Shown: piece by piece, positions 2,728 to 4,594 of the stretch
How positions within the stretch are numbered: the stretch's first letter is position 1
How the letters are laid out: every line of letters begins with the position of its first letter
Origin: Streptacidiphilus carbonis
GTDB taxonomy: Bacteria; Actinomycetota; Actinomycetes; Streptomycetales; Streptomycetaceae
Assembly (NCBI RefSeq): GCF_000787775.1
Contig: NZ_BBPM01000041.1
Span: 37,046 to 71,555, forward strand
Reading direction: 5' to 3'
DNA: 34,510 bases
Translations under genes and position numbers: made by a program
The notes under the pieces: generated by a model
The model's database searches: none
What the model was told of the DNA's origin: nothing
The model's input: only the letters and a program-made list of their open reading frames with translations

Positions 2728-3406
2728 GCTGCGCAGCAGACTTCGTCGTGGCGACCGGCCGACGGGCGCCGATGCTTCTGCCCCGTCCCCTGCCGACGAT
2801 GTGGTGGACCACGTGTTTCCTGACCTCTACGGTGCCGCGGATCTGCACAGCCCCGAAGACCTCCAGAACCCTGGAGACCCCCACGGTGCTGACGATCTGT
2901 CCGGTGCCGAGCATGCACGCCCGCGCCCCGAATCCGCGGGCGCGCTCGCGCCGGTGCTGGCGCGTGCCCGCCGACGGGCCGTCCGCGCGGGCGACGGCGA
3001 GATCGACAGCGGGCACCTGCTGCACGCCCTGCTGGAGAGCGACGAGCACGCGCTCGGCCTGGCGGCCCCTTCGCCCACCCAGGCAACCAGACTGATGGGG
3101 TATCTGGCCCAGCGGAGCATCGGGTTCGGGCGCCACTGGCAGCAGGGAGAGGGTGAGAGCGCCGACGAAGGGTCCGGCATATCCAGGCAGCGGCTCGCAC
3201 TGCCGCTGCCGCCGGGACTCAGCGACGCCGCCGCGGCGGCTGTCGGCCGCTGCCGGGTCGCCGCGCTGCTGCGGGACGCCGCCGAGGCGGATCCGCTGGA
3301 CCTGCTCGCCGAACTCGCCTCGGACCCGGCCAGCCGGGCGGCCAAGATGCTCAAGGGGGCCGGCGCCGACCCTGCCGCGGTGGCGGAGCGGGCCCGCCGG
3401 CGCTGA
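2720..3406 (+). CDS. Clp N-terminal (repeat) domain protein
   Basis: About 228 residues if TTG 2720 is the start; a later GTG near 2800 is also possible, since no good ribosome site decides it. From about residue 75 it resembles the Clp N-terminal repeat: APVLARARRRAVRAGDGEIDSGHLLHALLESDEHALGL, the helix-turn-helix that in ClpA/ClpC binds adaptors and substrates. A second, weaker repeat follows near residues 160-215. It has no AAA+ module, so it is not an unfoldase; short Clp-N proteins are common in Streptomyces and might act as decoys or adaptors (inference). The N-terminal 70 residues are acidic and low-complexity. Confidence 0.7.
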   Translation: MLTLRSRLRRGDRPTGADASAPSPADDVVDHVFPDLYGAADLHSPEDLQNPGDPHGADDLSGAEHARPRPESAGALAPVLARARRRAVRAGDGEIDSGHLLHALLESDEHALGLAAPSPTQATRLMGYLAQRSIGFGRHWQQGEGESADEGSGISRQRLALPLPPGLSDAAAAAVGRCRVAALLRDAAEADPLDLLAELASDPASRAAKMLKGAGADPAAVAERARRR

Positions 3407-3481
3407 GCGGGGACGGGGCAGCGGGGAGACGGGGGCAGGTGGGGGAAGGGGGCCGGGGGCGGAAGCCGGGACGTGGCGAGA

Positions 3482-3507
3482 CCCGGGAGCGGTATCCATC
3501 TCCCGGG
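3482..3507 (-). terminator. Hairpin terminator downstream of the tRNA-like RNAs
   Basis: Perfect 8-bp inverted repeat CCCGGGAG (3482-3489) / CTCCCGGG (3500-3507) with a 10-base loop. On the minus strand it lies about 27 bases beyond the outer stem of tRNA-like unit 2, so it is well placed to end a transcript running from the gene at 4594 through both RNAs. It could also act for the plus-strand gene ending at 3406. No T tract follows. Confidence 0.55.
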
Positions 3508-3533
3508 CCTCTGGTGATGCCACCCAATTGCTT

Positions 3534-3671
3534 GCGCCAGCACGTTTAAGAGCTGCGGATCATTCTCAAATCGCCGTGTTCTGCCTTTGAACTACCCCTG
3601 CAGGATGGAGCAGGGGGCCGGACTTGAACCGGCATCCGACGATGGTCGTCCGCACTCGTTCGACCTGGCGC
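3534..3671 (-). ncRNA. Permuted tRNA-like RNA, unit 2 (Gly-like acceptor, T-CCA)
   Basis: Read on the minus strand, the element carries tRNA parts in permuted order. 3' anticodon-stem strand CGTCG (3641-3637), 3-nt variable loop GAT, T arm GCCGG-TTCAAGT-CCGGC (3633-3617), 3' acceptor CCCCTGC (3616-3610), discriminator T (3609), CCA (3608-3606), linker TCCT, 5' acceptor GCAGGGG (3601-3595), U8-A9, D arm GTTC-AAAGGCA-GAAC (3592-3578), A26, 5' anticodon-stem strand CGGCG (3576-3572), then A32-T33. Acceptor pairs 7/7 and anticodon stem 5/5 with one G-U. A15/T48 and D-loop GG are present. Outside this core, GCGGA/TCCGC, GAG/CTC and GCGCCAG (3671-3665)/CTGGCGC (3540-3534) can pair into a long closing stem, as in Y RNAs. 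Boundaries are set by that outer stem. Either a YrlA-type tRNA mimic or a circularly permuted tRNA-Gly gene; no function is proven. Confidence 0.75.
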
Positions 3672-3683
3672 TCGGCGGCGAAT

Positions 3684-3818
3684 GCTGAATCTGGAGCGAG
3701 AGTCTGAGATTGATCGCGGCTGCCTCTGCCTGCTTGGGCTACCCCGGCCCGCTGGTGCCGGGGGGAGGAGTCGAACCTCCACTGGACCGCGTCGGTCACG
3801 ACAAGCTTCAGTTTCAGC
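3684..3818 (-). ncRNA. Permuted tRNA-like RNA, unit 1 (A-CCA)
   Basis: Same architecture as the neighbouring unit, 12 bases apart. Minus strand: anticodon-stem strand CGCGGT (3791-3786), variable loop CCAGT (3785-3781), T arm GGAGG-TTCGACT-CCTCC (3780-3764), 3' acceptor CCCCGGC (3763-3757), discriminator A (3756), CCA (3755-3753), 4-nt linker GCGG, 5' acceptor GCCGGGG (3748-3742), U8-A9 (3741-3740), D arm beginning GCCC with D-loop GG (3739-3722), and anticodon-stem strand GCCGCG (3720-3715) followed by A-T. The acceptor pairs 7/7 and GCCGCG/CGCGGT gives 6 pairs including one G-U. A15 and T48 can form the Levitt pair. Further out, GCTGAA (3818-3813) can pair with TTCAGC (3689-3684), which sets the ends given. 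The D stem has three good pairs and a C-A mismatch. It starts about 45 bases after the stop of the gene at 3863-4594, so it may be co-transcribed with it. Confidence 0.72.
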
Positions 3819-3862
3819 TTGCGCTCCTGGCGCACCCCGCCCGAGGACGGGGGTCTATGGGG

Positions 3863-4594
3863 CTACCCGAAGAGGTAGCCGAACACCTTGCCGCCGACGC
3901 GCCGGTCGCTGACCTCCGCGCCGTTGGCTTCCTCACGAGCGTACTTCACCGCCTGCTGCAGCTTCTCCACCCGCTCCAGCAGGTCGTTGACCCGCTTCGC
4001 GGGCAGGGCGCCGGAGAACTTGACGGTGGTCCAGTAGCCGACGGCGACGTCCTCCGTGTAGACCTCGACCTGGGCCGGGTGCTTCTCGGTGGCCTCGGCC
4101 TTGACGTGGTTCCGCATGACCTTGCGGGTGCGGATGGTCCGGGTCGGCTCGGTGCGCCAGGAGTCCGTCGACTCGTCCCGCGACCAGGCCTCCGAGGCGT
4201 CCAGGACCGGCAGCTTCTTGACGAAGGTGTGCAGGTCGACCAACTGCTTCTCCAGGAACAGGAGGTAGCTGACCGGCGCGGCCTCGACGATGACGTCGCC
4301 GTCGACGACGACGTCGGCCTTGGCCGTGCAGTTGGCCCAGTCCTTGGTCGCGGTGACGTCGAAGAGGCGGGTCAGCGTGGCGGCGGTGGACCTGAGTACG
4401 TCCTCGGCCTTCACCTGGACCCGGGTCGACTCGGGCGGGAACTGGTCGCCCTCCTCGTCCTTGGGCTGGTACGTCCGCGAGATCCCGGCCAGGAGCGCGG
4501 TCTTCTGCACGTCGTGGTGGGCTTGGGTGAGGTCGGCGAAGGACTTGGACTTGACGCCCTTCTCCACCGCGATGATCTGATTGAGCTTGGTCAC
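3863..4594 (-). CDS. Conserved actinobacterial protein of unknown function (DUF7873-like), linked to tRNA-like RNAs
   Basis: A 243-residue soluble protein, GTG start at 4594 with GGGAG 5 bases upstream. It begins MTKLNQIIAVEKGVKSKS, is rich in Lys and acidic residues, has no signal peptide or membrane segment, and ends with a basic helical region (ERVEKLQQAVKYAREEANG) then GYLFG. I recall the family as DUF7873, found in Streptomyces and possibly actinophages; that assignment is from memory. No catalytic motif is evident. The tRNA-like RNA pair lies immediately downstream on the same strand, so an RNA-binding or RNA-processing role is a reasonable guess, but only from context. The final codons form a 7-bp hairpin (GGCTACC/GGTAGCC). 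Confidence 0.75.
   Translation of the reverse strand: MTKLNQIIAVEKGVKSKSFADLTQAHHDVQKTALLAGISRTYQPKDEEGDQFPPESTRVQVKAEDVLRSTAATLTRLFDVTATKDWANCTAKADVVVDGDVIVEAAPVSYLLFLEKQLVDLHTFVKKLPVLDASEAWSRDESTDSWRTEPTRTIRTRKVMRNHVKAEATEKHPAQVEVYTEDVAVGYWTTVKFSGALPAKRVNDLLERVEKLQQAVKYAREEANGAEVSDRRVGGKVFGYLFG

Follow-up and report, generated by a model that had tools for sequence, protein, structure and literature searches.

The bacterial YrlA-type Y RNAs have been described as partners of Ro60/Rsr (TROVE). Circularly permuted tRNA genes occur in algae and archaea. In the passages of the literature cited here, YrlA appears as a modular RNA that holds Rsr through its basal stem and PNPase through its tRNA-like domain (PMC8394870), and bacterial Y RNA is circularly permuted relative to tRNA (PMC11472068). 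The rsr-yrlBA operon of Salmonella is given with two Y RNAs in the cited part of a third paper, which also raises the possibility that YrlA acts as a decoy against a tRNA-cutting nuclease (PMC7790460).

The window, i.e., the whole stretch of 34,510 nucleotides from Streptacidiphilus carbonis that was analyzed, carries two minus-strand RNAs of about 135 nt each, located 3' of a DUF7873 gene. In each unit the T arm comes first, then the 3' acceptor strand; past a short linker stand the complementary 5' acceptor strand, the dinucleotide UA and the D arm. An anticodon-like helix flanks these tRNA-like parts and continues into a long basal stem. The window RNAs have the build of a YrlA-type Y RNA and not that of a permuted tRNA gene. 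The features, all on the minus strand, are as follows.

3863–4594, minus strand: DUF7873 gene (PF25283), 243 aa; Pfam E 3.9e-119 over residues 1–242; constant neighbor of the RNAs
3835–3853, minus strand: G+C-rich hairpin in the gap between the DUF7873 gene and unit 1, read from the sequence; possible terminator or processing site
3684–3818, minus strand: unit 1, Y-like RNA (3818–3684); basal stem 3818–3813 with 3689–3684 and the permuted module between them, from a pair count over 30 sequences
3791–3786 and 3720–3715, minus strand: unit 1 anticodon-like strands
3764–3780, minus strand: unit 1 T arm, GGAGG TTCGACT CCTCC; T stem 100% paired, n=30 sequences
3742–3763, minus strand: unit 1 acceptor-like stem, CCCCGGC (3763–3757) with GCCGGGG (3748–3742); 98.6% of cells paired, double changes at 7/7 pairs
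3756–3749, minus strand: unit 1 linker between the acceptor strands, ACCA (3756–3753) and GCGG (3752–3749)
3722–3739, minus strand: unit 1 D arm, preceded by TA; from the sequence and the 30-sequence pair count
3534–3671, minus strand: unit 2, Y-like RNA (3671–3534); basal stem GCGCCAG (3671–3665) with CTGGCGC (3540–3534)
3641–3637 and 3576–3572, minus strand: unit 2 anticodon-like strands
3617–3633, minus strand: unit 2 T arm, GCCGG TTCAAGT CCGGC; 100% paired, n=33 sequences
3595–3616, minus strand: unit 2 acceptor-like stem, CCCCTGC (3616–3610) with GCAGGGG (3601–3595); 100% paired, double changes at 7/7 pairs, n=33
3609–3602, minus strand: unit 2 linker between the acceptor strands, TCCA (3609–3606) and TCCT (3605–3602); TA and the D arm follow 3' of GCAGGGG
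3482–3507, minus strand: G+C-rich hairpin 3' of unit 2, CCCGGGAG with CTCCCGGG, read from the sequence; possible transcript end

The first-pass annotation of this DNA had proposed two tandem units with tRNA parts in circularly permuted order, and all the elements that it named were found on the minus strand where it had placed them. A strict descriptor and the sequence agree on this order for both units. The descriptor matched exactly twice in the window, at units 1 and 2, against a total of 4 matches in 100 dinucleotide shuffles searched on both strands, more than chance would give. Unit 2 folds far better than its shuffles (z -3.25, 0/200 as good) and unit 1 does so moderately (z -1.63, 12/200 as good). 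With R1, a unit-2 model built from 33 sequences (the window, 19 bacterial loci, one phage and 12 of 80 viral loci), unit 2 of the window, itself among the 33, scores 133.9 bits. A terminator scan that requires a T run gave nothing at the hairpin of 3835–3853, and the window has no T run at the hairpin of 3482–3507 either; hairpins 3' of unit 2 are also seen by eye in some phage loci.

A YrlA-type Y RNA had also been named as the nearest known form, and the Rfam scores agree: unit 2 is matched best by RF02553 (31.6 bits), and no other family is listed over most of unit 1 (21.7 bits for RF02553), although neither score reaches the cut-off of 69. At the gathering cut-off, no RF02553 match was obtained in 20 loci. 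The permuted module with its T, acceptor and D arms is present in both units, and each has a long basal stem formed by its 5' and 3' ends, weaker in unit 1 than in unit 2. No Ro60/TROVE gene lies next door, and the only TROVE match of this genome is on another contig. The tandem pair had been regarded as unusual, a view that does not hold against the two Y RNAs of rsr-yrlBA in the cited part of the Salmonella paper (PMC7790460).

Conservation was followed in the best 80 of 539 bacterial DUF7873 matches, found with the window protein as query in Streptomyces and close genera, and in the best 80 of 188 viral ones, some loci being near-identical in both collections; the sets A3 and A4 hold only dereplicated units with linkers of at most 11 nt. 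The unit-2 alignment, with 33 dereplicated sequences of bacterial and phage origin, shows double changes at 29 of the 33 predicted pairs. The structure was derived from the same alignment, which favors it, and with this reading 96.3% of cells pair, compared with 38.1–45.8% when the partners are slid by 1–3 columns, and none of 500 shuffles reached as high a value. The two long basal helices of unit 2 are paired in 97.0% and 90.6% of cells. In unit 1 (n=30), pairing reaches 98.6–100% of cells in the helices of the T, acceptor and D parts and the outer helices are weak, with 79.8, 36.7, 65.0 and 58.2% for helices 1–4; when viral unit-1 sequences were folded alone, two of four were no stabler than shuffles. 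In 164 of 200 distinct units the anticodon-like helix, which RNAalifold missed, is 5 bp or longer; with the 3' strands exchanged between units, the number falls to 74.4 on average. The permuted tRNA-like fold and the basal stem of unit 2 are conserved by compensatory change. The acceptor pairing within each unit and the match of the anticodon-stem strands, both pointed out in the first-pass annotation, are upheld in homologous loci, where it had proposed looking for conserved paired positions.

A circularly permuted tRNA gene, spliced or circularized to a working tRNA, would share with these units the cloverleaf arms, U8 and the anticodon-like stem, and CCA stands in both units of the window. 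Among the bacterial relatives (best 80 of 539), however, only 25 of 151 linkers start with NCCA, and the linkers vary in length between 4 and 40 nt (descriptor limit 45), so the intact CCA and the exact 4-nt spacer that had been given weight are local traits; no conserved CCA or chargeable acceptor end is present. The anticodon end opens into the long basal stem with no anticodon loop, and joining the ends would not complete an anticodon arm. Both basal motifs of unit 1 were found in 78 bacterial loci; nine of these lack the T loop, and their unit 1 measures 80–91 nt. All nine copies carry a single imperfect stem-loop in place of the module, with 5–6 pairs kept at its foot, which indicates that retention of the basal stem does not depend on the module. 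We know of no bacterial splicing of this kind. The identity as permuted tRNA genes, at which the early reading had hinted, was rejected on the CCA, linker and module-replacement counts, and we regard it as very improbable.

Permuted order could also be imitated if the units were remnants of tandem tRNA arrays, in which the 3' half of one tRNA and the 5' half of the next look permuted. Tandem tRNA-Asn genes only a few bases apart (L185, L186) do mimic the permuted module and score 45–47 bits with R1, so searches for permuted tRNAs need such a control, and phage copies of the cassette often lie in tRNA clusters. No tRNA in standard order is conserved around the units in 26 relatives, however, the Rfam tRNA cut-off is not reached in the window, and the basal pairing of unit 2 shows compensation, which together make this origin extremely improbable as a present identity; as an evolutionary source, tandem tRNA arrays are possible. 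A standard tRNA search had been expected to miss both units, but ARAGORN calls a spurious tRNA-Phe over unit 1 (3753–3841) that borrows its T arm and 3' acceptor strand. Calls of this type cover unit 1 in 6 of the 26 relatives, four as tRNA-Phe and two with another anticodon.

The RNAs are closely linked to the DUF7873 gene. At least one permuted module lies 3' of this gene in all of the best 80 of 539 bacterial loci, and with the window added the descriptor finds unit 2 in 81/81 and unit 1 in 70/81. Nine phage regions were opened out of 73 matching records, and in eight of them DUF7873 is followed by permuted RNAs (phages of Arthrobacter, Gordonia, Pseudanabaena, Vibrio, Klebsiella and Rhizobium). 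The ninth, a Microcoleus phage region (L086), has neither a descriptor nor an R1 match beside DUF7873. By eye, the gap 3' of its gene (3238–3650) shows a hairpin resembling a T arm, together with possibly matching acceptor strands about 65 nt apart, and a HEARO RNA match (3441–3650) overlaps the end of this region. Among the best 80 of 188 viral loci, four of which hold less than 900 nt downstream, the descriptor finds a module within 900 nt downstream of DUF7873 in 65, compared with three upstream and none antisense. R1 matches near DUF7873 were counted by hand at E 0.01 in 76 of these 80 loci, 12 of which had helped to build the model. Seventy-four of the 76 are downstream on the same strand. 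The match of L118 lies on the opposite strand, about 1.2 kb past the gene, and that of L136 just upstream; these two loci are natural rearrangements of the cassette. No R1 match was found in L097, L098, L122 and L158, the last of which ends 125 nt past the gene.

The same linkage holds at the genome level. DUF7873 is present in 92 of 150 Streptomycetaceae genomes, and R1 matches of at least 58 bits occur in 92/92 of these and in 0/58 of the others, the threshold having been chosen after the gap was seen (the next match, at 55.9 bits, lies beside TROVE). Positions were compared for all 93 top R1 rows, 24 lower R1 rows and 22 TROVE rows. Ninety-two of the 93 top matches lie 143–292 nt downstream of DUF7873 on the same strand, and the remaining one overlaps a partial DUF7873 match in G334. 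Conversely, only two of 94 DUF7873 gene matches have no such R1 match downstream, namely this partial match and a second copy in G439. Eleven of the 24 weaker matches are beside TROVE, at a distance of 0.9–1.2 kb, each covering only model positions 44 to 100–107, and two others that were opened are tandem tRNA-Asn genes; a partial match like the eleven occurs in G340 without TROVE. In phages, R1 separates less cleanly, since several TROVE-linked RNAs match end to end at 20–41 bits and the DUF7873-linked RNA of L090 reaches only 43.2 bits. The phage copies of the cassette are often found inside tRNA clusters. In one such cluster, that of Gordonia phage Phendrix (L083), a tmRNA match is seen at 569–1097 (89 bits, cut-off 47). 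In the early reading, the permuted order, the compensated pairing and YrlA as the nearest form were sound, the hint of tRNA genes was not supported, and the adjoining DUF7873 gene had been missed.

Such a constant position is also what would be expected if the RNAs regulated the DUF7873 gene or the end of its mRNA, as a 3' UTR element with tRNA mimicry and not as a separate RNP. The 92 unit-2 matches on the same strand, 143–292 nt past the gene, fit this and cotranscription is possible. The RNA lies upstream of the gene in L136 and on the opposite strand in L118, however, and two RNAs with different basal stems exceed the need of a 3' end, and we consider a 3' UTR role unlikely.

A further explanation is that the units are YrlA Y RNAs of the ordinary kind, working with a Ro60/Rsr encoded elsewhere, and that DUF7873 is a mere neighbor or accessory. 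The RF02553 scores are alike, 21.7–38.0 bits for DUF7873-linked and 26.4–42.4 bits for TROVE-linked units, the latter also below the cut-off of 69, and the own genome does possess a TROVE gene, on another contig. TROVE occurs in 89 of the 150 Streptomycetaceae genomes, with both genes in 62, DUF7873 only in 30, TROVE only in 27 and neither in 31. This co-occurrence is above expectation (Fisher p 0.017, kinship not corrected), and some functional tie is thus possible. Nevertheless, no TROVE match was found in 30 of the 92 DUF7873 genomes, nor in 27 of the 32 viral DUF7873 records tried (32 of 89 loci, many of which may be fragments), and in the 150 genomes R1 never reached 58 bits without a DUF7873 match. 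The DUF7873-RNA link persists where no TROVE gene is found.

TROVE genes in Streptomycetaceae and phages have permuted tRNA-like RNAs of their own (L001, L187, L188, L175–L178). Among the five phage records with both genes, permuted RNAs lie upstream of TROVE in four (L175–L178); in the fifth, L174, the descriptor finds none at the TROVE locus. The TROVE-linked RNAs share the same tRNA-like module and differ in the basal part: 10 of 14 such units have UACUUC upstream of the T arm, a motif seen in none of 259 DUF7873-linked units. The basal motifs of the DUF7873 type occur in 211 of the 259 (69 of 109 viral units) and in 3 of the 14. In this count the motifs were chosen after the data had been seen, the 14 units were picked by hand, and a unit of L083 (at 3878) that lies within a tRNA array was excluded beforehand. 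With separate RNAs at TROVE in four of the five phages, service to a Ro60 encoded elsewhere appears a rather unlikely account of the RNAs beside DUF7873.

For DUF7873, 7508 relatives were scored at E 0.001 among 7999 candidates in one search. Its predicted fold is confident (pLDDT 94, pTM 0.78) and consists of long helices and a long beta hairpin, and the invariant or nearly invariant ATxKHPAQ (residues 168–175), judged from its place in the sequence, falls on the turn that joins strands 151–166 and 175–194. Four proteins have a pI of 5.7–6.6, slightly acidic and not basic. Pfam at E 0.001 gives DUF7873 alone, with no TROVE domain, and no other known fold or family was found. No solved structure matched the model at a Foldseek E of 0.001 or better, and the Ro60 fold is not among the fold matches listed, an absence that is no proof. 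A weak fold match (probability 1.00, E 1.4e-2) was obtained with the uncharacterized crAss-like phage protein A0A7M1RW91 of BFVD, which may be a distant relative.

In a tree of 61 DUF7873 proteins (bootstrap not settled, midpoint root), all 14 sampled bacterial proteins fall into one clade of 16 rows (99/98) whose other two members are viral, surrounded by a broad diversity of viral proteins, and the genes neighboring the cassette are not widely shared. The cassette is therefore probably phage-derived and taken over by actinomycetes. Across the phylum, DUF7873 was found in 6 of 296 genomes, all Streptomycetaceae, and single proteins are listed from Micromonospora, Polymorphospora and Actinocrinis. 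Deinobacterium chartae, a control genome far from actinomycetes, matches both DUF7873 and TROVE.

On balance, DUF7873 and the two RNAs of YrlA architecture probably form a Ro60-independent RNP cassette of phage origin, in which the stem would bind DUF7873 and the mimic would meet tRNA- or RNA-processing enzymes. By analogy with the binding of Rsr by YrlA, the basal stems would bind DUF7873, and the tRNA-like module may present the RNP to enzymes that recognize tRNA, such as modification enzymes or nucleases like PNPase. Alternatively, the module could act as a decoy for tRNA-cutting enzymes, a role that would suit phages carrying tRNA clusters. The cassette would have arisen in phages, often within such clusters, and then have passed to Streptomycetaceae and some related actinomycetes. 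The different basal stems of the two RNAs suggest two binding modes or two particles. We lean, with somewhat less assurance, to a broader proposal: DUF7873 would be a further family of proteins that bind Y RNAs, with no relation to Ro60, and phages and actinomycetes would employ it with a matched pair of tRNA-mimic RNAs. This Ro60-independent RNP would most likely protect, repair or redirect the processing of tRNAs, or serve as a decoy for host defences that cut tRNAs, and the basal stem would be an exchangeable address for the protein.

A permuted tRNA mimic is here tied to a protein family other than Ro60, and the linkage extends over phages of Vibrio, Klebsiella, Rhizobium, Gordonia, Arthrobacter and a cyanobacterium as well as the 92 Streptomycetaceae genomes. 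The Y RNA would thereby be split into two halves, an exchangeable basal address and a constant tRNA mimic, and the DUF7873 family would be given a testable role. What the mimic recruits would become testable in strains without Ro60, and phage tRNA clusters are a possible cradle of Y RNAs.

Compared with the algal and archaeal permuted tRNA genes, the units share the order of the halves and differ in having no conserved CCA, no anticodon loop and, in unit 1, a dispensable module. The likeness to YrlA (RF02553) is closer: in the cited parts of the three papers, YrlA is a permuted tRNA mimic of about 90–150 nt whose T-, D- and acceptor-like arms are carried by a basal stem of the 5' and 3' ends (PMC8394870, PMC11472068, PMC7790460), and two Y RNAs are present in Salmonella as here (PMC7790460). 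The units differ from YrlA in their partner gene, DUF7873 instead of TROVE/Rsr, in their basal-stem motifs and in scoring below the RF02553 cut-off. The Rsr (Ro60)-Y RNA-PNPase machine, RYPER, follows in the cited passages a proposed modular logic, with the basal stem for the protein and the tRNA-like module as effector (PMC8394870), and the same logic may apply to the present cassette, whereas the linkage here does not need TROVE and DUF7873 has no detected likeness to it. A search of open-licence papers yielded no family of Y-type RNAs with a partner protein besides Ro60. The RNA architecture is already known; such a partner was not met in that literature, and DUF7873 is a strong candidate new RNP partner of Y-type RNAs.
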